A stretch of DNA of 64,000 nucleotides, from assembly GCA_018384595.1 (NCBI GenBank), contig JAHAYO010000018.1, positions 1 through 64,000 of the forward strand, given 5' to 3'. This stretch comes from Thiopseudomonas sp. GTDB taxonomy: Bacteria > Pseudomonadota > Gammaproteobacteria > Pseudomonadales > Pseudomonadaceae. The translations under genes were made by a program, and so were the position numbers. This document shows positions 2,768 through 61,974 of the stretch, one piece after another (positions within the stretch are counted from its first letter, which is position 1; each line of letters starts with the position of its first letter). The notes beneath the pieces are model-generated. The model saw only the letters and a program-made list of their open reading frames with translations. It did no database searches and was not told where the DNA came from.

Positions 2768-3712
2768 ATGTCCGTTCGTGAAATTCGTATCGCAACCCGT
2801 AAAAGCGCCTTGGCCCTGTGGCAGGCGGAGCATGTTAAATCCCGTCTGGAACAGGCCCATCCGGGCTTGCAGGTCAGCTTGGTTCCCATGGTTAGCCGAG
2901 GCGACCAGCTGCTCGACTCGCCGCTGGCCAAAATTGGCGGCAAGGGGCTGTTCGTCAAAGAGCTGGAAACCGCGCTGCTAGAAGGCGAGGCCGATATTGC
3001 GGTGCACTCCATGAAAGATGTGCCCATGGAGTTTCCGCAGGGGCTGGGCCTGTACTGCATCTGCGAGCGCGAAGACCCGAGCGATGCGTTTGTGTCCAAT
3101 CATTACGACAGCCTGCAGGCACTGCCGCCGGGCAGCGTGGTGGGCACCTCCAGCCTGCGCCGTCAGGCCCAGCTGCTGAAGCTGCGCCCCGATCTGCACA
3201 TCAATTTCTTGCGCGGCAACGTCAATACGCGCCTGGCCAAGCTGGATGCCGGCGACTATGACGCCATCATCCTGGCGACAGCCGGCCTGGTCCGCCTGGG
3301 CTTTGCCGGGCGCATCCGCAGCTGCCTGAGCCATGAAGACTGCTTGCCCGCTGGCGGCCAAGGCGCGGTGGGCATTGAGTGCCGCACGGCAGATGCGGCC
3401 ATCCGCCAGCTGCTGGAGCCGTTGCAACATGCCGATACCGCCGACCGCGTGATTGCCGAGCGTGCCCTTAACCGCCACTTGCAGGGCGGCTGTCAGGTGC
3501 CCATTGCCTGCTATGCGGTGCTGGACGGTGACCAGCTGTGGCTGCGCGGACTGGTCGGCCAGCCGGATGGTACACGGATGTTGCGTGCCGAGGCCCGCGC
3601 TCACCGCTCGCAGGCCGAGGCGCTGGGCGTGGAGGTGGCCGAGGCCCTGCTAAAGCAGGGTGCCGGTGAAATCCTGGCGCAAATATATGCCGACGAAACA
3701 CCGGCCCGCTGA
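2768..3712 (+). CDS. hemC: Hydroxymethylbilane synthase (porphobilinogen deaminase)
   Basis: Joins four porphobilinogen molecules into hydroxymethylbilane, the linear tetrapyrrole precursor of heme and siroheme. 314 residues, normal length. The dipyrromethane-carrying cysteine is C242 in [11 protein letters not shown], and the catalytic aspartate lies in [20 protein letters not shown] and [13 protein letters not shown] are the cofactor- and substrate-binding arginine segments. First gene of hemCDXY, three bases before hemD. A TATGAT-like -10 element is at 2713, but no good -35 is visible. Confidence 0.98.
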
Positions 3713-3715
3713 CTG

Positions 3716-4489
3716 ATGGACGGTTGCTGGCGCGTGCTGATTACCCGCCCCGCTGCTGACAATGCAGCGCTGGGCGAGTTGCTGGCGCGGCAGGGCATCT
3801 ACAGTCATGGCCTGCCGCTGCTGGACATGCGCCCGTTGCCGGAAACGCCCCGCGAGCGCGACCTGCTGCTCAATCTGGACCGCTACAGTACGGTAGTCGT
3901 GGTGAGCAAGCCGGCTGCCCGCCTGGCCCTGCAGCGGCTGGACCGCTACTGGCCGCAGCCGCCGCTCAAACCGCAGTGGTTTACCGTGGGTGAGGGCAGC
4001 GGGGCTATTTTGGCGGACTATGGTCTGACTGTGCACTGGCCGCTGTCGGGCGATGATAGCGAGGCGTTGCTGGCGCTGCCGGAGTTTGCCCGCTCGTTGC
4101 AGCAGCCGTCGCCGCGTGTGCTGGTGATGCGTGCCGATAGTGGGCGCGAGTTTCTGGCGCAGCAGCTGAGCAAACAGGGTATTGAGGTGGATTTTTTGCC
4201 GTTGTATCAACGATTTTTACCTGAATATCCAGCGGGTACTTTGTTAAAGTTGATCCGCGAGCATCATCTCAACGGGCTGGTGGTTAGTAGCGAACAGGGG
4301 CTGCGCAATTTGCGGCAGTTGGCCGCGCAGGATTGGCAGTCCCTGCGTGATTTACCCCTGTTTGTGCCCAGCCCGCGTGTTGCACAGACTGCCCGAGATC
4401 TAGGAGCCCTGCAGGTGATTGATTGCCGGGGCGCGAGCAACCTGGCTGTACAGGCGGCGCTTGCAAGTAGCCGTCCGATTCAGCCCTAG
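3716..4489 (+). CDS. hemD: Uroporphyrinogen-III synthase
   Basis: Cyclises hydroxymethylbilane with inversion of ring D to give uroporphyrinogen III. 257 residues, usual length. Sequence conservation is low in this family; supporting features are the start WRVLITRPAADNAALGELLA, the VVVVSKPAARLAL segment, and VLVMRADSGREFLAQQL marking the second domain. The position immediately after hemC and before hemX is the strongest support. Cytoplasmic. Confidence 0.95.
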   Translation: MDGCWRVLITRPAADNAALGELLARQGIYSHGLPLLDMRPLPETPRERDLLLNLDRYSTVVVVSKPAARLALQRLDRYWPQPPLKPQWFTVGEGSGAILADYGLTVHWPLSGDDSEALLALPEFARSLQQPSPRVLVMRADSGREFLAQQLSKQGIEVDFLPLYQRFLPEYPAGTLLKLIREHHLNGLVVSSEQGLRNLRQLAAQDWQSLRDLPLFVPSPRVAQTARDLGALQVIDCRGASNLAVQAALASSRPIQP

Positions 4490-4501
4490 AAGGACACATC
4501 C

Positions 4502-5761
4502 ATGAGCAAAGATAAAAAGCCCAAAAATAGCACCTCGTCTGTCACCGATGCTGAAGTGTTGCAGCCTGAAAGCGCTGTCGAAGACTGCGCGGCGGATACC
4601 GTTATTGAGGTTGAGGCCGGTGTTGAGCAGGTTGTAGACGAAAACACTGCCGAGACGCCGCCGGAGGCCAGCGAGCAGCCTGCTAGGCCGAGCGCGCCGG
4701 TGGCGCAGCCCGCTGGCGGCGGTGGCAAGGCGCTGTCGACGCTGGCTCTGTTGGTGGCGTTGGCCGGTGCCGGCTTAAGCGGCTGGACGTGGTATGAAGG
4801 TCAGCAGCAGTCGGTGGCCGCAGCGGTGCCAGCGCCGGCAGCCACTGACTATGGCGATGCGATTGAAAAACAGGCCGGACAGCTGCAAGGGCTGCTGCGC
4901 CAGACAGATACCTATAAAGAGCAGATTAGCCGGCTAGAGCAGCAGCTGGCTGCTGTGCCCAGAGCAGCTGAGCTAGCAGAAAACCAGCGCTTGCTGGTGC
5001 AACTGCAGTCTGCGCAACAAGCCTTTACCCGACGCTTTGAGCAGGCTTTTGGCAATACCCGCCAAGACTGGCGGCTGGCCGAAGCCGAGCACCTGCTGCG
5101 TATGGCCCATCTGCGCCTAACTGCGCTGCAGGATTTGAGCAGCGCGCGCTATCTGTTGGAGGCCGCTGACCAGATTTTATTTGAACAGGATGATCCGGCT
5201 GCCTATGCCGCCCGCGAGGCCATGGCACAGGCACTGACTGCAGTGCGCGCAGTGCCGAAGCTCGACCGCACCGGTGTGTTTATGCGCCTAGGCGCGCTCA
5301 ACCAGCAGGTGGGTAGCCTGAGCCAGACGCTGCCGGGTTACACGCCAGGTGACAGCGACACCGGCAGCATCGACTGGAGCAAATTGCTGGACAAAGCATC
5401 CAACTACATCCGCTTGGATATCAACAGCGACACCGAGGCGGTTAAACCGCTGTTGTCCAGCCAGCAACTGATTCATATTCGGCTGGCGGTTAGCCTGAGT
5501 TTGGAGCAGGCCCAGTGGGCCGCGCTTAACGGCCAGCAGGCGGTGTATGACCAAGCGCTCACGCAGGCCGGTGCCCTGTTGCAGGATTATTTTGCCGCAG
5601 ATTATCAGCCCGCTGCGCACATGCGTGAGCAGGTGCAAGAGCTGGCCGGTGCCAGCGTTAGCCAGAGCATGCCGGACATCAATCCGGCTCTGCTGGCGCT
5701 GCAAGCCTATATTCAAGAGCGCACCCTTGAGCAGCGTGCACCCGCGGAGGCCAGCCAATGA
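4502..5761 (+). CDS. hemX: HemX-family membrane protein (uroporphyrinogen-III C-methyltransferase-like)
   Basis: A 419-residue protein with a long acidic, low-complexity cytoplasmic N-terminus (about 1-75), one transmembrane helix (LSTLALLVALAGAGLSGWTW) and a periplasmic part with a coiled coil (about 120-165) and helical region. It carries the HemX family architecture. Although often annotated as a methyltransferase, it has no recognisable S-adenosylmethionine-binding motif, and its biochemical role in heme synthesis is unsettled. Third gene of hemCDXY; its stop overlaps the hemY start (ATGA), so the two are probably translationally coupled. Confidence 0.9.
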   Translation: MSKDKKPKNSTSSVTDAEVLQPESAVEDCAADTVIEVEAGVEQVVDENTAETPPEASEQPARPSAPVAQPAGGGGKALSTLALLVALAGAGLSGWTWYEGQQQSVAAAVPAPAATDYGDAIEKQAGQLQGLLRQTDTYKEQISRLEQQLAAVPRAAELAENQRLLVQLQSAQQAFTRRFEQAFGNTRQDWRLAEAEHLLRMAHLRLTALQDLSSARYLLEAADQILFEQDDPAAYAAREAMAQALTAVRAVPKLDRTGVFMRLGALNQQVGSLSQTLPGYTPGDSDTGSIDWSKLLDKASNYIRLDINSDTEAVKPLLSSQQLIHIRLAVSLSLEQAQWAALNGQQAVYDQALTQAGALLQDYFAADYQPAAHMREQVQELAGASVSQSMPDINPALLALQAYIQERTLEQRAPAEASQ

Positions 5762-6957
5762 AAAAGCGCACTTTCCTGTTGCTGCTGCTGGCCATTTTGG
5801 CGGCGGCTGGACTGGGCATGCTGGTGGTTGAGCACCAAGGCTATGTCTTGATTACTTGGAAAAACATTCGTTTTGAAGCCACGTTGTGGGTGTTTTTGGC
5901 CTGTTTGGCGATTCTGCTTGCGGGGCTGTATCTGCTGCGTTTGCTGGCCGCTGGTTTGTTGTGTTCGCTGGGTTGGGTCAACCCGTGGTCGGCGCACAAC
6001 CGCAAAAAACGGCTGGATACTGCGGTGCATCAGGGCATGTTGGAGTTTTCCCGTGGCAACTGGCAGCCGGCGCTGCGTCAGTTGAGCCATGCTGCTAAGG
6101 TCAGCGAGCAGCCGCTGCCTTATTTACTGGCGGCGGCGCGGGCGGCAGAAAAACTGCAGCAGCCGGATACGGCGGATCAGTTGCTGGGCGAGGCCCGGGA
6201 GCGTTTGCCAAACAACGATCTGGCGATCAGCCTGTGCCAGGCTGAATTTCATAGCCAGCGCGGCCAAACGCAGCAGGCGCAAGAGGTGCTGCAGCAGGCG
6301 CGCAAGCACCATGCCGATAATCCCGAGCTGGCGCTGCGCCTGTATCAGGTGCTGCTGGGCAATCAGGATTGGGGCGGTTTGATTGGCCTGTTGCCTGATT
6401 TGCGTAAGGGGCGCGTGCTGGCCGAGGCTGAGTTGTCTACCCTAGAGCAGCGCGCTTGGCAGGGCCGCCTGCAGTCGGCAACCCAGCTGGATGCGCTGCA
6501 AAAAATCTGGAACACCATGCCGGCTAGTTTGCATCGCCATGCGCGTACAGTGCTGGCCTACTGCAGCCAGCTGATTACTCTGGGGCATGCCGGCGAGGCC
6601 GAAGGGTTGTTGCGCCAGCAGCTGGCGCAGGCGGTCGATGTGCAGCTGTTGCAAGCCTATGCACAGATTCCGCATGCCGACCCAGCCGCAGCGCTGGAGC
6701 GAGGCGAAAGCTGGCTGCAACAAGCAGCGGATGACGCGCTGGCTTTGTTTGCCGTGGGCCGCTTGGCGGTGCAGGCACGGCAGTGGGGCAAGGCGCGGGA
6801 TTATTATCAAGCCAGCCTAGAGCGTATGCCAACGGCGCAGGTGTATGCCGAGCTGGCACGCTTGCTCAACCAGATGGGCGATTACAAAACTGGCGGCGAG
6901 TTGCTGGCGACGGGTATTCGCCTGCTAGAACAGCAGAACGGGCAGGCGACTGCCTAA
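5758..6957 (+). CDS. hemY: HemY, TPR-containing inner-membrane protein
   Basis: A 399-residue protein with two N-terminal transmembrane helices (about 5-25 and 42-65) followed by TPR-like repeats, for example LLAAARAAEKLQQPDTADQL and ISLCQAEFHSQRGQTQQAQE. HemY of proteobacteria is linked genetically to the late steps of heme synthesis and is unrelated to the Bacillus protoporphyrinogen oxidase of the same name. It is the last gene of the operon and is followed within 15 bases by a strong terminator. Confidence 0.92.
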   Translation: MKKRTFLLLLLAILAAAGLGMLVVEHQGYVLITWKNIRFEATLWVFLACLAILLAGLYLLRLLAAGLLCSLGWVNPWSAHNRKKRLDTAVHQGMLEFSRGNWQPALRQLSHAAKVSEQPLPYLLAAARAAEKLQQPDTADQLLGEARERLPNNDLAISLCQAEFHSQRGQTQQAQEVLQQARKHHADNPELALRLYQVLLGNQDWGGLIGLLPDLRKGRVLAEAELSTLEQRAWQGRLQSATQLDALQKIWNTMPASLHRHARTVLAYCSQLITLGHAGEAEGLLRQQLAQAVDVQLLQAYAQIPHADPAAALERGESWLQQAADDALALFAVGRLAVQARQWGKARDYYQASLERMPTAQVYAELARLLNQMGDYKTGGELLATGIRLLEQQNGQATA

Positions 6958-6970
6958 GTGCTTGAGCCAC

Positions 6971-7002
6971 AAAAAACCGCTCCGGTCTGGAGCGGTTTTT
7001 TT
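6971..7002. terminator. Bidirectional intrinsic terminator between hemY and algR
   Basis: Stem CCGCTCC/GGAGCGG with loop GGTCT, flanked by A6 on one side and T7 on the other, so it can end both the hem operon and the convergent algR transcript. Confidence 0.93.
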
Positions 7003-7028
7003 ATGCGCCGGATTTTTTGGCAGGGACG

Positions 7029-7754
7029 TTAGAGGCGGTGCATCAGCTTGCGCACCGCACCGGCATGGCGGCGGCTGACCGGCAGCGGCTCGGGCCACGC
7101 GCTGAGGTGTAGCCATTGCTGGCCGTTGTTGGGGGCACGTTCCATGCGTTCGATGACGCTGCGGTTGACCAAGATACTGCGGTGGATGCGCACCAGCTGG
7201 TCGGCAAATTCCTGTTCTAGCGCTTTGAGCGGTTCGTCAATCAGGGTTTCGCCACGGCGGTGATAAACGGTGACGTATTTGTGCTCGGCCTGAAAATACA
7301 GAATGTCGTCCAGCGCGATGCATTCCAGCCCTTTGTGGGTTTTGGCGCTGATATGGGTGCGTGGGGCGGGCGCTTGTTCGCCAGCGCCCGCCTGGGTCAA
7401 GAGCCGTGCGCGCTGCATGATCTGTTCAAGCTGCTCGGCGCGTACCGGTTTGACCAGATAGCCCAGTGCATGCACGGCAAAGGCCGGCAGGGCAAATTCG
7501 TCATGGGCGGTGCAGAAAATAATGGCTGGGGTGTTGGGCAGTCGATTGAGGGCGGTGGCCACCTCTATGCCGTCCAGTTCTGGCATTTGGATATCGAGCA
7601 GCAGCACGTCAGGATTGTGCTGTGCGCATAGCTGCAGCGCCTCTTTACCGTTGCTGGCCTGTGGCTCCAGCAGCTGGCAACCCTCAATGCGGCTTACCAT
7701 GGCCGCCAGACGGGCGCGCGCTAGGGGTTCGTCATCTGCGATCAGTACGTTCAT
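7029..7754 (-). CDS. algR: LytTR-family response regulator AlgR
   Basis: A 241-residue response regulator. The receiver domain (1-120) has the acidic pair D7 D8, the phospho-acceptor D54 in LLLDIQMPELDG, and the conserved K in LVKPVR. The C-terminal LytTR DNA-binding domain runs from about 140 (ISAKTHKGLECIALDDILYF) to the end. AlgR controls type IV pilus minor pilins, alginate and virulence genes in P. aeruginosa. The frame is open to a TTG at 7763, but AlgR homologues begin at MNVLI, so ATG 7754 is used. It overlaps the fimS end by 23 bases. Confidence 0.95.
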   Translation of the reverse strand: MNVLIADDEPLARARLAAMVSRIEGCQLLEPQASNGKEALQLCAQHNPDVLLLDIQMPELDGIEVATALNRLPNTPAIIFCTAHDEFALPAFAVHALGYLVKPVRAEQLEQIMQRARLLTQAGAGEQAPAPRTHISAKTHKGLECIALDDILYFQAEHKYVTVYHRRGETLIDEPLKALEQEFADQLVRIHRSILVNRSVIERMERAPNNGQQWLHLSAWPEPLPVSRRHAGAVRKLMHRL

Positions 7755-8823
7755 GGTCGGCAAGGCTCCCGGATGCGGCTGTGAAGGGGTAGCTAATCTG
7801 GATGCTAAATAGGGTGTCGCTGCTGTGACAGGTTAGGCGTGCGGCGGGGCCAAACAGCGCTGTGAGCCGCAGGCGGATATTTTCCAGCGCCATGCCGTTG
7901 CCTTTGTGACGTGGGGCGGCGGCGGGCAGCGGGTTGTCTATGCGCAGGCTAAAGGTGTTTTGCGTAACGCTGGCTTGCACCACAATGGTGCCACCTGCGC
8001 TCAGGGGCTGTATGCCGTGCAAAATGGCGTTTTCCAGCAGGGGCTGCAGTGACAAGTGAGGAATGGGTAGCGTGTCAGGCACGCCGTCGATGTGCCAGTC
8101 TAGTTGTAGGCGCTCACCCAGCCGGTGTTGCTCCAGCGACAGGTATTGTTGGGCCAGCGCCAGCTCGTGTTGCCAGGTGGACAGGCTGTTATCTTGGCGC
8201 AGGACGGCGCGAAACAGCGCGGAGAGGACAAGCAGTGCCAGTTCGGCTTTGTCGGGGGCGATTTGGATCAGGCTGGCAATGCTGTTGAGGCTGTTAAACA
8301 AAAAATGGGGGCGGATGCGTGCTTGCAGTGCCTGCAAGCGTGCCTGCAGCTCGGCGCGCTGGCGGCGGCGGGCTTGGCTTTGTAGGTAAAAAATACGCAC
8401 CACCATGCCAGACATAATCAGGCTGATGAGGCTGTTTTTCAGATACAGGGCCAAGCCGCCCTGACCGGCGCTGATAAAGCCCTGCACCTGTATTTGCACA
8501 TGTTGGCTGGCTGCAGTGCAGGCGAGGGTAACCAGTACGGTAAGCAGGCAGGCGAGCAGGCTGGCGTACAGTGAGCTTAGGTGTATCAGCCAAGGCCGTA
8601 ACAGACACAGCAGCGTTACGGTCAATAAGACCACCCACTGCACAAAAAAAGACATCAGCGCCAGCCGTGACCAGTCAAAGGCAGGGGTAGCGGATTCAGC
8701 CAGCACCAGCACCATCACCAGCAGCTCGGCCAGCAGCACGAGGCTGAACAACGCCTCTCCGCGGCATAGGGCCGGCAGGAAAAAATCAGTTTCGCGGGAG
8801 GTGGGCAGCGTCGGTGTGTTCAT
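7732..8823 (-). CDS. fimS: Sensor histidine kinase FimS/AlgZ (LytS-like)
   Basis: A 363-residue membrane kinase, partner of AlgR. Several hydrophobic segments fill the first 150 residues. The His-kinase box is RPHFLFNSLNSIASLIQIAP, the pattern of the LytS/YehU class in which the phosphorylated His is followed by FLFN. An N box (LQPLLENAILHG) and a glycine-rich segment (KGNGMALENIRLRL) are both present, so ATP binding looks possible. The first ATG (8823) is used; a GTG two codons upstream is an alternative. Translational overlap with algR indicates one transcript. Confidence 0.93.
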   Translation of the reverse strand: MNTPTLPTSRETDFFLPALCRGEALFSLVLLAELLVMVLVLAESATPAFDWSRLALMSFFVQWVVLLTVTLLCLLRPWLIHLSSLYASLLACLLTVLVTLACTAASQHVQIQVQGFISAGQGGLALYLKNSLISLIMSGMVVRIFYLQSQARRRQRAELQARLQALQARIRPHFLFNSLNSIASLIQIAPDKAELALLVLSALFRAVLRQDNSLSTWQHELALAQQYLSLEQHRLGERLQLDWHIDGVPDTLPIPHLSLQPLLENAILHGIQPLSAGGTIVVQASVTQNTFSLRIDNPLPAAAPRHKGNGMALENIRLRLTALFGPAARLTCHSSDTLFSIQISYPFTAASGSLADHERTDRR

Positions 8824-8871
8824 GGCCACAGTGTCGCCTGCCCGTGGCGCGCACGCAAGGGCTGGCGCTGC

Positions 8872-9390
8872 TTAGCCGGCGCAACGATGATCCTGTTCAC
8901 GGTTTTCTTGCGTGCTCGACCGCCGCAGGCGGCCCTGTCTGTTCAGCACCAATTGCCAGTCGATAGCACCGTCGCGGCACATAAAAAAGCGCCCGTTGCT
9001 GGCGGTGCTAAAACCGTTGGCATGGAAAATGATTTGGCGCTGAAACCCTGCCCATTGCAGCTCTAAATCGCCGGTGTCGAGGCTGACCACCTGTTCGGGC
9101 GCGAGCTGACTGGAGCCCTGCGCCCGTGGTTGTAAAATCCAGCCTTGGCTCCATTGGTTGTTGCATTGCAGCCCGTTACTGCTGCCGCACAGCTCAATGG
9201 ATACCTTGCGGGTCACCGCCATGGCGCGTGCTTGATGCAGCGTGCGTTCAATGGCGTGCATAGCGGATTGTGAGCGGTTGTTGTTGATAAATTGCTGCCA
9301 GGCGGGAAGGGCGATCTGGGCCGCGATGGCCAAAATTGCCACAATAATCAGCAACTCAACTAGGGTAATGCCTTGGTGTCGTGTGCGCAT
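8872..9390 (-). CDS. fimT: Type IV pilus minor pseudopilin, FimT/GspH family
   Basis: A 172-residue prepilin-like protein. The leader MRTRHQG is cut before ITLVELLIIVAILAIAAQIA, keeping Glu5 and the hydrophobic helix of type IV pilins; isoleucine rather than phenylalanine follows the cleavage site. The rest (CGSSNGLQCNNQWSQGWIL) matches GspH/FimT pseudopilins, which prime pilus assembly and in some bacteria bind DNA. It lies directly after the promoter-proximal side of fimS on the same strand. Gene symbol is tentative because FimT and FimU are hard to separate by eye. Confidence 0.85.
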   Translation of the reverse strand: MRTRHQGITLVELLIIVAILAIAAQIALPAWQQFINNNRSQSAMHAIERTLHQARAMAVTRKVSIELCGSSNGLQCNNQWSQGWILQPRAQGSSQLAPEQVVSLDTGDLELQWAGFQRQIIFHANGFSTASNGRFFMCRDGAIDWQLVLNRQGRLRRSSTQENREQDHRCAG

Positions 9391-9499
9391 AACAGCCTCC
9401 GTGCATAGAGATATCCTTGTCTGCGGCTGACTGTAGTCCGGCTTTTACAAAGGGTATGAAAAAATCTGTTGTGCCTTGCATCCTGCCGACCGCCGCCTT

Positions 9500-9525
9500 A
9501 TATAGAAGCCACATATAGAAGCCAC
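9500..9525. repeat. Short tandem duplication upstream of trxC
   Basis: The 13-bp unit ATATAGAAGCCAC occurs twice in a row, 33 bases before the trxC start. It also contains TATATA-like elements that may act as a -10 region. Probably replication slippage. Confidence 0.6.
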
Positions 9526-9557
9526 TTCGGCCAACCGCCAAAACTGAGGAACCTGTT

Positions 9558-9995
9558 ATGACCGCTTGGATTATTCCCTGTGCGCAGTGTGATGCGCTTA
9601 ATCGTGTGCCTGCTGAACGCACCGCCGACCAGCCCCGTTGCGGAGCCTGTGGCCAGTCGGTGTTGCAGGGTAAGCCGCTGCAGCTGACGGCGGCTCGTTA
9701 TGGCAAGCAGATCAAGGGCGATGTGCCTTTGTTGGTGGATGTTTGGGCCAGCTGGTGTGGCCCGTGTCGCCAGTTTGCGCCGGTGTTTGAGCAGGCGGCG
9801 CAGCAGTTGCAGGGTGTGTGTCGGCTGGCCACGCTGGACAGCGAAGCGGAGCAGTCGCTTGCCGGCCAGTTGGGCATTCGCTCAATTCCGTCGCTGATCC
9901 TGTTTAAAAACGGCAAGGAAGTCGCCCGCCAGAGTGGCGCGATGACGCTGGCACAGCTGCTTGGCTGGCTGCGTCAGCAGGGGGTGGAACTGTAA
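9558..9995 (+). CDS. trxC: Thioredoxin 2 (zinc-binding thioredoxin)
   Basis: A 145-residue thioredoxin with an N-terminal zinc ribbon (C8-x2-C11 and C28-x2-C31) and then the thioredoxin fold with active site WCGPC (C67, C70). The cis-proline segment IRSIPSLILFKNG is intact. TrxC is the cytoplasmic thioredoxin linked to oxidative stress in E. coli; the zinc ribbon distinguishes it from TrxA. Monocistronic in appearance, divergent from fimT. Confidence 0.96.
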   Translation: MTAWIIPCAQCDALNRVPAERTADQPRCGACGQSVLQGKPLQLTAARYGKQIKGDVPLLVDVWASWCGPCRQFAPVFEQAAQQLQGVCRLATLDSEAEQSLAGQLGIRSIPSLILFKNGKEVARQSGAMTLAQLLGWLRQQGVEL

Positions 9996-10075
9996 GGTGT
10001 GGGCCGTTGGCGGTCTGCTAAAGCAGCCGTCATCTGCTATGATGCGCGCACGTTTTAACCTGCAGCGGAATCACC

Positions 10076-11482
10076 ATGAGCGCAAACCAACATACCGAAA
10101 AAACCAACCAGTCCTGGGGTGGCCGCTTTAGCGAGCCCGTGGACGCCTTTGTTGCCCGTTTCACCGCATCGGTCGAGTTTGACCAGCGCCTGTATCGTCA
10201 CGACATCATGGGCTCGCTCGCCCATGCCAAGATGCTGACTAAGGTCGGCGTGCTGGCCGAAGATGAACTCAAGGCCATTGAAGAAGGGCTCAGCGCCATC
10301 CAGCAAGAAATCGAGGCTGGCGAGTTTGACTGGCGCGTGGATCTGGAAGATGTGCACATGAATATCGAGGCGCGTCTGACCGAGCGCATCGGCATTACCG
10401 GCAAAAAACTGCACACCGGACGTAGCCGCAACGACCAAGTAGCCACTGATATCCGTCTGTGGTTGCGTGATGAGATTGACCTCATTTTGGCCGAAATTAC
10501 CCGCCTGCAGCAGGGTTTGTTGGAGCTGGCCGAACGCGAAGCCGACACCATCATGCCGGGCTTTACTCACTTGCAAACTGCCCAGCCAGTGACTTTTGGC
10601 CATCATCTGCTGGCCTGGTTCGAGATGCTCAGCCGCGACCACGAGCGCCTGGTCGATTGTCGCAAACGCACCAACCGTATGCCGCTGGGCAGCGCCGCGC
10701 TGGCCGGTACTACTTATCCGATTGACCGCAGCATCACCTGCGAGCTGCTGGGCTTTGAGGCCATTTCCGGCAACTCGCTCGATGGTGTGTCGGATCGGGA
10801 CTTTGCCATCGAGTTTTGTGCCGCCGCCAGTCTGGCGATGATGCATCTGTCGCGTTTCTCCGAAGAGCTGGTGATGTGGGCTTCGGCGCAGTTCAACTTT
10901 ATCAACCTGCCGGACCGCTTCTGTACCGGCAGCTCGATCATGCCGCAAAAGAAAAACCCCGACGTGCCCGAGCTGGTACGCGGCAAGTCTGGCCGGGTGT
11001 TTGGTGCTTTGATGGGTTTGCTGACCCTGATGAAAAGCCAGCCGCTGGCCTACAACAAGGACAACCAGGAAGACAAAGAGCCGCTGTTTGATGCCGCTGA
11101 TACCCTGCGCGATAGCCTGCGTGCCTTTGCCGACATGGTACCGGCCATCGAGCCGCGCCGTGAGGTGATGCGCGAAGCGGCTCTGCGTGGTTTTTCCACG
11201 GCTACCGATCTGGCCGACTATCTGGTGGGCAAGGGCATTCCGTTCCGTACCTGCCACGATATCGTAGGCCGCGCCGTTGGCTATGGCGTCGAGCAGGGCA
11301 AGGATTTGGCCGAAATGAGCCTGGACGAGTTGCGCCAGTTTAGCGACCAAATTGGCGACGATGTCTATCAAGTGCTGACGCTGGAAGGCTCAGTCAACGC
11401 CCGTAATCACTTGGGCGGCACCGCACCAGCGCAGGTACGTCAAGCGGTGAGTCGTGGTCGTGAACTGTTGGCTACGCGCTGA
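10076..11482 (+). CDS. argH: Argininosuccinate lyase
   Basis: Splits argininosuccinate into arginine and fumarate, the last step of arginine synthesis. 468 residues. Fumarase/aspartase superfamily signatures are all present: [13 protein letters not shown], the histidine-bearing [13 protein letters not shown], and the mobile loop [12 protein letters not shown] with its catalytic serine. No substitutions in active-site motifs were seen. In P. aeruginosa argH neighbours fimS/algR; here trxC and fimT lie between them. Confidence 0.98.
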
Positions 11483-23302: not shown

Positions 23303-24748
23303 TCAACCTTCCAGCTTTTGTTTCAGCAGCTGGTTGACCTGTTGCGGATTGGCCTTGCCCTTAGACACCTTCATCGCCTGGCCGACAAAGAAGCCGAACA
23401 TTTTTTTGCGGCGGTTGTCATCGGCGCTGCGGTACTCCTCAACTTCCGTGGCATGGGCCGCCAGCATCACGTCAAGAATGGACTCGATAGCGCCACTGTC
23501 GGTGACTTGCTTCAGGCCGCGCTGGTCGATGATGTCATCGGCGCTGCCTTCGCCATTGGCGATGGCTTCAAATACCGTTTTGGCAATGTTGCCGCTGATG
23601 GTGTTGTCTTTGATGCGTACCAGCAGCTCGCCCAGTTGCTGCGCGCTAACCGGTGACTGTTCGATATCCAGGTTGTCCTTGTTGAGCAGACTGGACAGCT
23701 CGCCCATCACCCAGTTGGCGGCCAGTTTGGCATCGCCGCAGACCTGTTGCGCCTGTTCGTAATAATCGGCCATGGCGCGGCTGGCGGTCAGTACGCTGGC
23801 GTCATAGGCAGACAGGCCAAATTCGCTCTGGAAGCGTTGACGCTTTTGCGTGGGCAGCTCCGGCAGGGTCTGGCGCAGCTGCTCCAGATAGTCACGCTCA
23901 ATCACCACCGGCAGCAAGTCTGGGCAGGGGAAGTAGCGGTAGTCGGTGGCTTCTTCCTTGTCGCGCATGGCGCGGGTTTCGTCTTTGGCCGGATCGTACA
24001 GGCGGGTTTGCTGCACCACCTTGCCGCCGTCTTCGATCAGCTCGATCTGGCGCTGGATTTCCGTGTTGATGGCGCGTTCGATAAAGCGGAACGAGTTGAC
24101 GTTTTTGATTTCGGTACGGGTGCCGAACTCTTTTTGCCCGACTGGGCGCACCGAGACGTTACAGTCACAGCGGAACGAGCCTTCGGCCATGTTGCCGTCG
24201 CAGACGCCCAGGTACTGCACCAGACTGTGAATGGCGCGGGCATAGGCTACCGCCTCTTTGGCGTTGCTGATTTCCGGCTCGGAAACGATTTCCAGTAGGG
24301 TGGTGCCGGCACGGTTGAGGTCGATCCCGCTCATACCGCTGAAATCTTCGTGCAGGCTTTTGCCGGCATCCTGCTCCAGGTGGGCGCGGGTGATGCCGAT
24401 GCGCTTGCTGCTGCCGTCTTCCAAGGTGATGTCCATGTGGCCCTTGCCGACAATCGGCAAGTCCATCTGGCTGGTCTGGTAGCCGCTGGGCAGGTCCGGG
24501 TAGAAGTAGTTTTTGCGGTCAAAGCGGTTGATTTCGCCGATCTCGGCATCCACCGCCAGACCGAACAGACAAGCCATGCGCACGGCTTCTTCGTTCAGCA
24601 CCGGCAGGGTGCCGGGCATGGCCAGATCACCGGCGCTGGCCTGAGTGTTGGGCTCGGCGCCAAACTCGGTGCTGCTGCCAGAGAAAATTTTGGTTTTGGT
24701 GGCGAGCTGGGCATGGATTTCCAGCCCGATTACGGTTTCCCATTGCAT
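23303..24748 (-). CDS. gatB: Asp/Glu-tRNA amidotransferase subunit GatB
   Basis: Kinase and transamidase subunit of GatCAB; it activates the misacylated Asp-tRNA(Asn) or Glu-tRNA(Gln) with ATP and adds ammonia. 481 residues, normal. [59 protein letters not shown], and the C-terminal tail domain ending in [20 protein letters not shown] are all typical. No active-site loss is apparent, in contrast to GatA next to it. It is the last gene of the gatC-gatA-gatB minus-strand operon. Confidence 0.97.
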
Positions 24749-24760
24749 GTCGGGGGCTCC

Positions 24761-26206
24761 TTAGAATCCGGCGGGACGGCGCAGATGCCAGTCGGTGGCT
24801 TGTTGATACTGGTGGGCGGCGTTGAGCAGGCGGGCTTCGGCAAACCAGGGTGCCAGTAGCTGCACGCCGACCGGAAGATCGTCAACCAGGCCGCAGGGCA
24901 AGCTCAGCGCCGGCAGACCGGCCAGACTGGCCAGTAGACAGTAGCGCTGAGCGTTTAGGTCTTGCGCGGTGCTTGATTCGCCAATCAGCGGAGCAGCGCC
25001 GGCAGCGACCGGAGCCAGCAACAGATCAACCTCGCTAAAGGTGGTTTGCAGGCCGTTTTTAATCAAACGACGTACCTTTTGTGCATGCACGTAGTAGTCG
25101 TTGTACTGGGCCGCCGACAGGTAGTGCGCACCTAACAGTAGGCGGCGCTTGACCTCGTCGCCAAAACCTTCGCTGCGGCTGCGCTGATACAGGTCGGACA
25201 GGTCTTTGGGGTCGGCACAGCGATGGCCAAAACGCACACCGTCATAGCGCGACAGGTTGGTGGAGGCTTCGCCGCTGCTGATGATCAGGGCGCAGGCTTG
25301 TGCTTGGTCTAGCTGGGGCAGTTGGATATCAACCAGACTGGCACCCAGTGCCTGCAGTTGCTCGGCGGCGGCCAGAATGGCAGCACCGTGCTGGCTGTCC
25401 AGTTGGGCGTCAAACAGCTCGCGCAGGATGCCGATTTTCAGCCCGCTTAGAGGCTGGACAAGGCTGGCGCTGTAGTCGTCAACCGGCTGGTCGGCGCAGG
25501 TGGAGTCGTGCGTGTCGAGTCCGGCGCTGGCCTGTAGCAGCAGAGCGACGTCTTCGGCGCTGCGGGTAATAAAGCTGGCTTGGTCAAAGCTGGACGCGTG
25601 GGCGGTGATGCCGCGGCGAGAAATACGGCCATAGGTGGGGCGCAGCGCAGTCAGGCCCAGATAGGCGGCGGGCAGGCGGGCATCACCCAAGGTGTCGCAG
25701 GCGGTGCTGGCGGCGGCCAGGCCAGCGGCCACGGCCACGGTACTGCCGGCCGCTGCGCCGCCTGATACCCGCTGTGAGTCCCAAGGGTTGGTCACAGCGC
25801 CGTAAAAACTGTTCTGGCCATTGCTGCCCATACCGAATTCGTCCATGTTCAGCTTGCCCAGCGAGAGGGCACCGGCCTGTTGCAGGCGTTCCAGCAGGTG
25901 CGCGCTGTAGGGAGCAATAAAGTTATCAAGCATTTTGGAGCCAGCGCTGGTACGCACGCCTTCGCTGCAGAAACTGTCTTGGTGCGCCAGTGGCAGGCCG
26001 GTCAGGCCGCTGGCGTTACCGCTGTTGCGTTGCTGGTCGGCGGCGTCGGCCTGAGCCAGTGCCTGTTCAGCGGTGGTGGTAATAAAGCTGTTAAGCGCGC
26101 CATCGTGTTGCTGAATGCGCGCTAAATAGTGTTGGGTAAGCTCGCGGGCGGAGAAGGCTTTTTTCGCCAGCGCGTTGGCCTGCTGGGCCAGGGTCATTTG
26201 ATGCAT
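24761..26206 (-). CDS. gatA: GatA homologue with the amidase triad replaced (probable pseudo-amidase)
   Basis: A 481-residue GatA by length and overall sequence (KLNMDEFGMGSNGQNSFYG, LPVGVQLLAPWFAEARLLN). The start at 26206 follows AAGGATCT. GatA normally frees ammonia from glutamine with a Lys/cis-Ser/Ser triad. All three are gone: the HKD lysine is Q76 (LPLAHQDSF), GGSSGGS reads GGAAAGS with A151, and the nucleophile motif DTGGSIRQP reads DTLGDARLP with D175. Relative to S. aureus GatA K79, S154 and S178 (remembered), each is exactly three residues earlier, so the alignment is unambiguous. The frame is intact. It likely keeps a structural role but cannot hydrolyse glutamine. Confidence 0.93.
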   Translation of the reverse strand: MHQMTLAQQANALAKKAFSARELTQHYLARIQQHDGALNSFITTTAEQALAQADAADQQRNSGNASGLTGLPLAHQDSFCSEGVRTSAGSKMLDNFIAPYSAHLLERLQQAGALSLGKLNMDEFGMGSNGQNSFYGAVTNPWDSQRVSGGAAAGSTVAVAAGLAAASTACDTLGDARLPAAYLGLTALRPTYGRISRRGITAHASSFDQASFITRSAEDVALLLQASAGLDTHDSTCADQPVDDYSASLVQPLSGLKIGILRELFDAQLDSQHGAAILAAAEQLQALGASLVDIQLPQLDQAQACALIISSGEASTNLSRYDGVRFGHRCADPKDLSDLYQRSRSEGFGDEVKRRLLLGAHYLSAAQYNDYYVHAQKVRRLIKNGLQTTFSEVDLLLAPVAAGAAPLIGESSTAQDLNAQRYCLLASLAGLPALSLPCGLVDDLPVGVQLLAPWFAEARLLNAAHQYQQATDWHLRRPAGF

Positions 26207-26219
26207 GGTTGCAGATCCT

Positions 26220-26501
26220 TCAGTCAAGCACTTTGGGCACAAGGTAGAGGCCGTCCTGCACGGCTGGAGCCAGCTGCTGGTAACGGTCGCGCTGATCGGT
26301 TTCACTGACGTGGTCGGCGCGCAAACGCTGAGTCAGATCGAGCGGGCTGATCAGCGGTGTTGTGTTGGCTGTATCAGTCTGGCGGATGCCGGCAGCCAGC
26401 AGGATGGCCTGATCCAGCGAAGCGGACAGGGCTGGCAGGGCAGCGGGTTCGAGCATGGTCAGGCGGGCGAGACTGTTCAGGTCGTCGGGCGTGAGGGCCA
26501 T
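26220..26501 (-). CDS. gatC: Asp/Glu-tRNA amidotransferase subunit GatC
   Basis: A 93-residue subunit that wraps GatA and GatB together. The start MALTPDDLNSLARLTMLE and the end APAVQDGLYLVPKVLD match GatC; TPLISPLDLTQRLRADHV is the belt segment. The annotated frame could extend to 26642, but only the ATG at 26501 fits the family. The middle is somewhat divergent from Pseudomonas GatC as I remember it. Confidence 0.92.
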   Translation of the reverse strand: MALTPDDLNSLARLTMLEPAALPALSASLDQAILLAAGIRQTDTANTTPLISPLDLTQRLRADHVSETDQRDRYQQLAPAVQDGLYLVPKVLD

Positions 26502-61816: not shown

Positions 61817-61892
61817 GTCCCCTTCGTCTAGTGGCCTAGGACACCGCCCTTTCACGGCGGTAACAGGGGTTCGAGTCCCCTAGGGGACGCCA
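61817..61892 (+). tRNA. tRNA-Glu (TTC)
   Basis: 76 nt including an encoded CCA. Acceptor GTCCCC pairs with GGGGAC; anticodon loop CTTTCAC with anticodon TTC between CCGCC and GGCGG; T-arm GGGGTTCGAGTCCCC. Confidence 0.98.
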
Positions 61893-61898
61893 CATCAA

Positions 61899-61974
<76 letters not shown>

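Follow-up and report, generated by a model that had tools for sequence, protein, structure and literature searches.

The gatA gene of Thiopseudomonas sp. located in the analyzed DNA (64,000 nt in total; referred to below as the window) encodes, as judged from its sequence, a member of the amidase fold that lacks the Ser-cisSer-Lys site, and the other GatA proteins read from the genus share this feature. Several further glutamine-using enzymes of these bacteria appear to be altered likewise, i.e. the change is larger than one affecting GatA alone. We consider it likely that the GatCAB complex works as an Asp-tRNA(Asn) amidotransferase on free ammonia, without glutamine hydrolysis, and that this is a genus-wide change.

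The gatA gene (positions 24761–26206, minus strand) starts with ATG, contains no internal stop codon and encodes a 481-aa protein. It is placed between gatC (26220–26501, minus strand; 93 aa) and gatB (23303–24748, minus strand; 481 aa), in the operon order gatC-gatA-gatB. All three reading frames are open, in agreement with the sequence-only reading of this DNA, which had described an intact gatA frame and a complete gatB. The transamidase subunit gene gatB is complete and strongly conserved; gatC is also complete, and fast evolving. GatA was aligned with four proteins of solved structure: 4wj3 (P. aeruginosa), 3h0l (A. aeolicus), 2df4 (which we take to be the S. aureus protein) and 3kfu. The alignments, ungapped near the catalytic sites, place Gln76 (codon CAA, 25979–25981, minus strand), Ala151 and Asp175 at the positions of the catalytic Lys, the cis-Ser and the nucleophilic Ser, respectively. 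Thus, the three substitutions first recognized from the letters were confirmed, and the offset of three residues proposed for each of them holds against 2df4. The changes suspected in the surrounding signature are also present: codons 151–152 (GCA GCG, 25751–25756, minus strand) specify Ala-Ala, Ser152 being replaced together with the cis-Ser, and codons 173–175 (25682–25690, minus strand) specify Leu-Gly-Asp at the Gly-Gly-Ser position that includes the nucleophile, so that the loop Gly173 has become Leu.

Two further positions are altered. Codon 306 (GCC, 25289–25291, minus strand) encodes Ala, and codon 420 (CAG, 24947–24949, minus strand) encodes Gln, where all 27 relatives read have Tyr and Asp, respectively. 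The glutamine-binding Asp of GatA is given as D418 for the yeast protein in the available text of PMC4027206. Position 420 is probably the site of this residue, lost in all three GatA proteins of the genus; this assignment comes from visual inspection of the alignment with 4wj3, that with 2df4 being gapped close by.

The distribution of these substitutions was examined in 57 genomes, including that of the window (G000; completeness 90.67%), and GatA matches were obtained in 56 of them. The genus is represented by G000, G001, G002 and G003, with listed completeness values of 87% (G001), 90%, 90.67% and 100% (G002), and a sister genus by two genomes, G020 and G035. No GatA match was found in the 87% complete G001. 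The protein was read from the best 30 of the 56 matching genomes, namely three of the genus and 27 others of the same family. Gln, Ala and Asp occupy the three sites in all three genus genes (G000, G002 and G003), whereas Lys, Ser and Ser are present in all 27 relatives, and the catalytic residues are intact in both sister genomes. Of the 26 matching genomes outside this count, G005 was read in part: its GatA pieces retain Lys76 and the Asp, and a contig gap covers both Ser sites. The best 80 of 578 named loci likewise all carry Lys, Ser and Ser; the nearest named GatA proteins among the matches listed include those of Pseudomonas, Azotobacter and Halopseudomonas, and the family looks like Pseudomonadaceae. 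The two other genus genomes with the altered residues are separate assemblies, whose GatA proteins show 69% and 72–73% identity. Since they contain the same three substitutions, an error at codons 76, 151 and 175, which had been named as a possible refutation, is ruled out.

Comparative analysis of the 27 relatives revealed 220 invariant columns, of which 32 differ in all three GatA proteins of the genus. Among these 32 are K76, S151, S152, G173, S175, Y306 and D420. The chance of all three catalytic residues falling within the 32 columns is 0.0028; with Y306 and D420, two positions added after the list had been inspected, the corresponding value for five of five is 5e-5.

The protein is still recognizable as an amidase. 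Its PF01425 score (393 bits) exceeds the cut-off, and its best model is the NCBIfam GatA model TIGR00132, with a score (453.3 bits) below the cut-off of 481.1. The predicted structure has a mean pLDDT of 86.1, with low-confidence stretches at residues 90–93, 315–326 and 361–363, and its best structural match is 4wj3_A (TM 0.91), which suggests that the amidase fold is kept. The glutaminase activity of GatA is predicted to be absent. It may be argued that a new catalytic site, formed for example by C170, D175 and Q420, still hydrolyzes glutamine or another amide, given that Q76, A151, C170, D175 and Q420 are identical in all three species of the genus. Such a site is highly improbable, as the protein no longer has either Ser, the Lys, the loop Gly or the Asp that probably bound glutamine, G002 has in addition lost Arg355, and the parallel losses in unrelated glutaminase folds (see below) point to an activity that was lost rather than rebuilt.

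Substitution rates were estimated from Nei-Gojobori counts. Within the genus, dN/dS is 0.18–0.25 for GatA, 0.06–0.08 for GatB and 0.16–0.33 for GatC, compared to 0.05, 0.04 and 0.13, respectively, for the sister pair G020–G035 (dS of 1.7, 1.3 and 0.5). Evolution of GatA and GatC is therefore faster in the genus than between G020 and G035, yet both remain under purifying selection. Relative to this sister pair, in which dS approaches saturation, the GatA ratio is raised 3.4- to 4.9-fold. The relaxation suggested by the sequence-only reading was thus borne out with respect to rate, but not as a release from selection. DNA identity between G000 and G003, followed in 150-base steps, is 0.65–0.81 over most of gatA and then rises to 0.94–0.99; the high part, which takes in the last portion of gatA and the bulk of gatB, extends from about 24865 down to about 23516 of the window, and dS between these genomes is 0.17 for gatB and 0.94 for gatA. 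Judged by this sharp border, the pattern looks like a recent interspecies exchange of gatB, which makes the comparison of GatA with GatB unsafe for the G000–G003 pair; pairs involving G002 show the same GatA/GatB picture.

The question of whether these bacteria need GatCAB was addressed by searching for enzymes that could replace it. No match to AsnRS was found with PF00152 in any of the four genus genomes (87, 90, 90.67 and 100% complete). In each of them the model matches three genes, encoding AspRS, LysRS and a third protein of approximately 330–370 aa. The latter was considered as a candidate AsnRS and rejected, being identified by model as EpmA in G000 and G002; the G001 copy reads alike and that of G003 falls within the same score range, so that no AsnRS is left among the PF00152 matches. 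Replacement of the amidase by synthetases, one of the possibilities raised earlier, is accordingly not upheld for asparagine; GlnRS is present in G000. G000 also contains a stretch (locus L035, contig C42, 1484–1552) that matches the GluRS/GlnRS catalytic family over 23 positions (23.8 bits), near a long ORF resembling a double ATPase by eye; this match may reflect chance or a remnant. AspRS retains the Pseudomonas-type segments RRRDHGG and RP[DE]GA, as well as residues H31 and G81, in all three proteins read. H31 and G81 presumably mark a non-discriminating enzyme, and we propose on the basis of these motifs that AspRS is of the Pseudomonas (non-discriminating) type.

A second gatA had been put forward as another way out, but was not found: G000 (90.67% complete) contains a single PF01425 match and G002 (100% complete) a single match by protein search. 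G003 carries one extra amidase with the Lys, Ser and Ser residues, which was rejected as a GatA (TIGR00132 score of 192.6 bits, compared to the cut-off of 481.1). The search for an asparagine synthetase of the AsnB type, an earlier suggestion, yielded no full-length PF00733 protein in the genus genomes, each of which gives only two weak matches of 20–26 bits that cover no more than 76 of the 354 positions; one lies inside guaA in G000, and the other in an ORF of 402–431 aa. The sister genome G020 is also without a strong AsnB-type match, hence this absence is not special to the genus. No tRNA-Asn was found among the 58 sources scanned. A tRNA-Glu(TTC) and tRNA-Gly(GCC) pair is present at positions 61817–61974 of the window and recurs, equally spaced, in G002 (L265). 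Since AsnRS is lacking among the matches, Asn-tRNA should depend on AspRS and GatCAB, and GatCAB should be its sole source. If GatA does not work, another source of the amide is required.

A search for class I glutaminase domains (PF00117) led to the other glutaminase enzymes of the genus, which, with GatA, represent three fold classes: (i) the amidase type (GatA), (ii) the triad type (CarA, GuaA and PurL) and (iii) the nitrilase type (NadE). In CarA, the Cys is replaced by Gly, the His by Ile or Val and the Glu by His in all three proteins; these losses are also evident against the solved 1c30, whose own chain has Ser at the Cys position, presumably a known mutant. CarB is open and 95–97% identical within the genus. 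Comparison with solved structures revealed that PurL has Gly for Cys and Asn for His, with the Glu retained (3/3), and that some 80 residues are missing from the glutaminase domain of GuaA, the Cys, His and Glu among them (4/4, G001 included). The synthetase parts of PurL and GuaA (in the latter, the ATP-binding part) are open and conserved. The two-domain NadE of G002, aligned with 5kha, has Ser in place of the glutaminase-site Glu and Gly in place of the Cys, and retains the Lys, positions that we take to be glutaminase-site residues. The same arrangement, a synthetase part kept and a glutaminase nucleophile gone, recurs in GatB/GatA, CarB/CarA, GuaA, PurL and the NadE of G002. In both sister genomes, CarA, PurL, GuaA and PyrG possess their catalytic residues. 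Where the two sister proteins agree, all three genus proteins differ from them at 110 of 340 columns for CarA, 287 of 1209 for PurL and 76 of 516 for PyrG. As other residues of each protein have changed too, the argument rests on loss of the nucleophile and not on rarity alone.

No match to the G002 NadE was found in any other locus examined, nor was a NadE found beside hemY in the window. Within positions 2768–11482 of the window, a hemC-hemD-type cluster was recognized by eye; according to Pfam, a two-component regulator pair comes next, with argH lying beyond it. The same cluster adjoins the two-domain NadE in G002 (L311, 13448–19465).

GlmS gave no match in the four genus genomes and was found in both sister genomes. 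NagB is present in all four (the G001 copy was checked by model), and as the sister genus has it too, it is not special to the genus. Both sister genomes yield PF00117 matches to TrpG and HisH, which the four genus genomes do not; HisA, HisF, HisB, HisH, TrpE, TrpD, TrpC and TrpG of the sister genus were unmatched in 694 kb of genus DNA and 400 kb more. In a further 400 kb of genus DNA, the sister TrpE matched PabB. PabB of G002 is encoded at L292, 2839–4182, and PF00117 finds no TrpG/PabA in that genome. The lack of matches to GlmS, TrpG and HisH, together with the small genomes of the genus (2.2–2.8 Mb, compared to 3.0–6.7 Mb in 30 of 32 other genomes of the family) and the raised dN/dS of GatA, GatC and CarA, would suit genome decay in a host-dependent lineage, in which the subunits are heading for loss and their products are obtained from a host or neighbors. 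We nevertheless regard decay as very unlikely: GatA, CarA, PurL and GuaA have open frames in each of the three genomes read, dN/dS lies well under 1, GatB and CarB are strongly conserved, and Asn-tRNA, for which no AsnRS was matched, cannot be supplied from outside.

Not all glutamine-dependent functions have been altered. PurF (L200 in G000, L201 in G002, L202 in G003 and L203 in G001) retains the N-terminal Cys, Arg73, Asn101, Gly102 and Asp127 (Met = 1); two of the seven sites viewed are changed (T76V and H100Q, in all four genomes). The PyrG triad is intact in the three proteins read, a C-terminal piece from G001 retains the His and Glu, and another PF00117 protein looks intact in all four genomes. 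GlnA is present in all four, and an NADP-type GdhA in G002. The kept PyrG triad and GlnA indicate that glutamine is still made and used, and with the PurF Cys they show that any switch to ammonia is not total. The same observations might be read in favor of a separate free glutaminase, or an amidase acting in trans, that releases ammonia from glutamine for all the crippled synthetases: GlnA is kept, PyrG is intact and G003 has its extra Lys/Ser/Ser amidase. This explanation is unlikely, given that G000 and G002 contain no further amidase-family match, and that it would be wasteful to build glutamine from ammonia and then to free the ammonia again. A weak motif search of approximately 43% of G002 also revealed no GlsA motif, and no urease or ammonium-transporter (AmtB) motifs.

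Most cells contain little free ammonia, and amidotransferases fed by glutamine through internal tunnels are therefore seen as the rule. The loss of glutaminase sites in unrelated folds, combined with the retention of the synthetase parts, makes a switch to free ammonia the best explanation of the pattern, and lends indirect support to the earlier suggestion that GatB uses it. According to the proposed mechanism, the non-discriminating AspRS would load Asp onto tRNA-Asn; GatB would use ATP to activate the side chain of this Asp and then amidate it with free ammonia; and the pseudo-amidase GatA, with GatC, would be retained as scaffold and tunnel parts, the dead glutaminase parts in general probably being kept to hold the complexes together. 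Glucosamine-6-phosphate may be formed from fructose-6-phosphate and ammonia by NagB, GlmS being unfound. We infer that each of the altered enzymes runs on ammonia and that an ammonia-rich habitat permitted the change. It is fairly probable that glutamine has been dropped as amide donor in several pathways, through inactivation of three unrelated glutaminase folds and loss of the Ntn-type GlmS.

If this is correct, tRNA-dependent Asn, purines, carbamoyl phosphate, NAD and probably glucosamine would be made from free ammonia, with CTP synthase as a clear exception whose resistance to the change becomes a testable question. Protein synthesis would be tied, through Asn-tRNA, directly to ambient ammonia, the choice of amide donor would be shown to be reversible, and natural tunnel-only enzymes would be at hand for asking why dead subunits persist. 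To our knowledge, no GatCAB working with a pseudo-amidase GatA is known, and the literature searched, in which few subscription journals were covered, contained neither a GatA without its catalytic site nor parallel glutaminase loss in one organism.

Individual elements of this proposal have precedents. Excerpts from the respective reports state that yeast GatFAB accepts NH4Cl as donor (PMC4027206) and that E. coli PurF without its Cys accepts free ammonia (PMC3261824). As to a conceivable ammonia-rich habitat, the GTDB family holding Thiopseudomonas also includes Ventosimonas (PMC7074058, in part), sections of PMC8277422 list ant-gut isolates and metagenome bins of the latter, and turtle-ant gut symbionts produce ammonia from urea (passages of PMC5840417). 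The crenarchaeal PurF' resembles the enzymes described here in having lost the N-terminal Cys nucleophile, ammonia use being proposed for it in the text available from PMC3261824; a normal PurF is encoded beside it, whereas no intact GatA, CarA, GuaA or PurL copy was found in the genus. The single-domain NH3-dependent NAD synthetase (PMC3376133, in part) is likewise an amidotransferase without a working glutaminase, but there the domain is absent, while in the two-domain NadE of G002 its site is changed. Among the entries of Table 1 considered here from the same source, a survey of 490–730 genomes, gatABC, carAB, purL and guaA have no entry without the glutaminase part, which is missing for nadE in 44%.

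The closest known system is the GatCAB/asparagine transamidosome of P. aeruginosa (4wj3), with which the genus shares the operon, the protein length, the predicted fold, GatB, the AspRS type and the lack of an AsnRS match; the P. aeruginosa GatA has Lys, cis-Ser and Ser where the genus has Gln, Ala and Asp, and the genus protein has also lost the probable glutamine-binding Asp. A glutaminase part retained without its Cys, with ammonia as donor, is a feature of animal carbamoyl phosphate synthetase I. The likeness to this enzyme lies in the Cys-less glutaminase part that was kept; there, the change concerns one enzyme and one pathway, whereas here it appears to extend to GatA, CarA, GuaA, PurL and NadE, i.e. 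to three unrelated folds.
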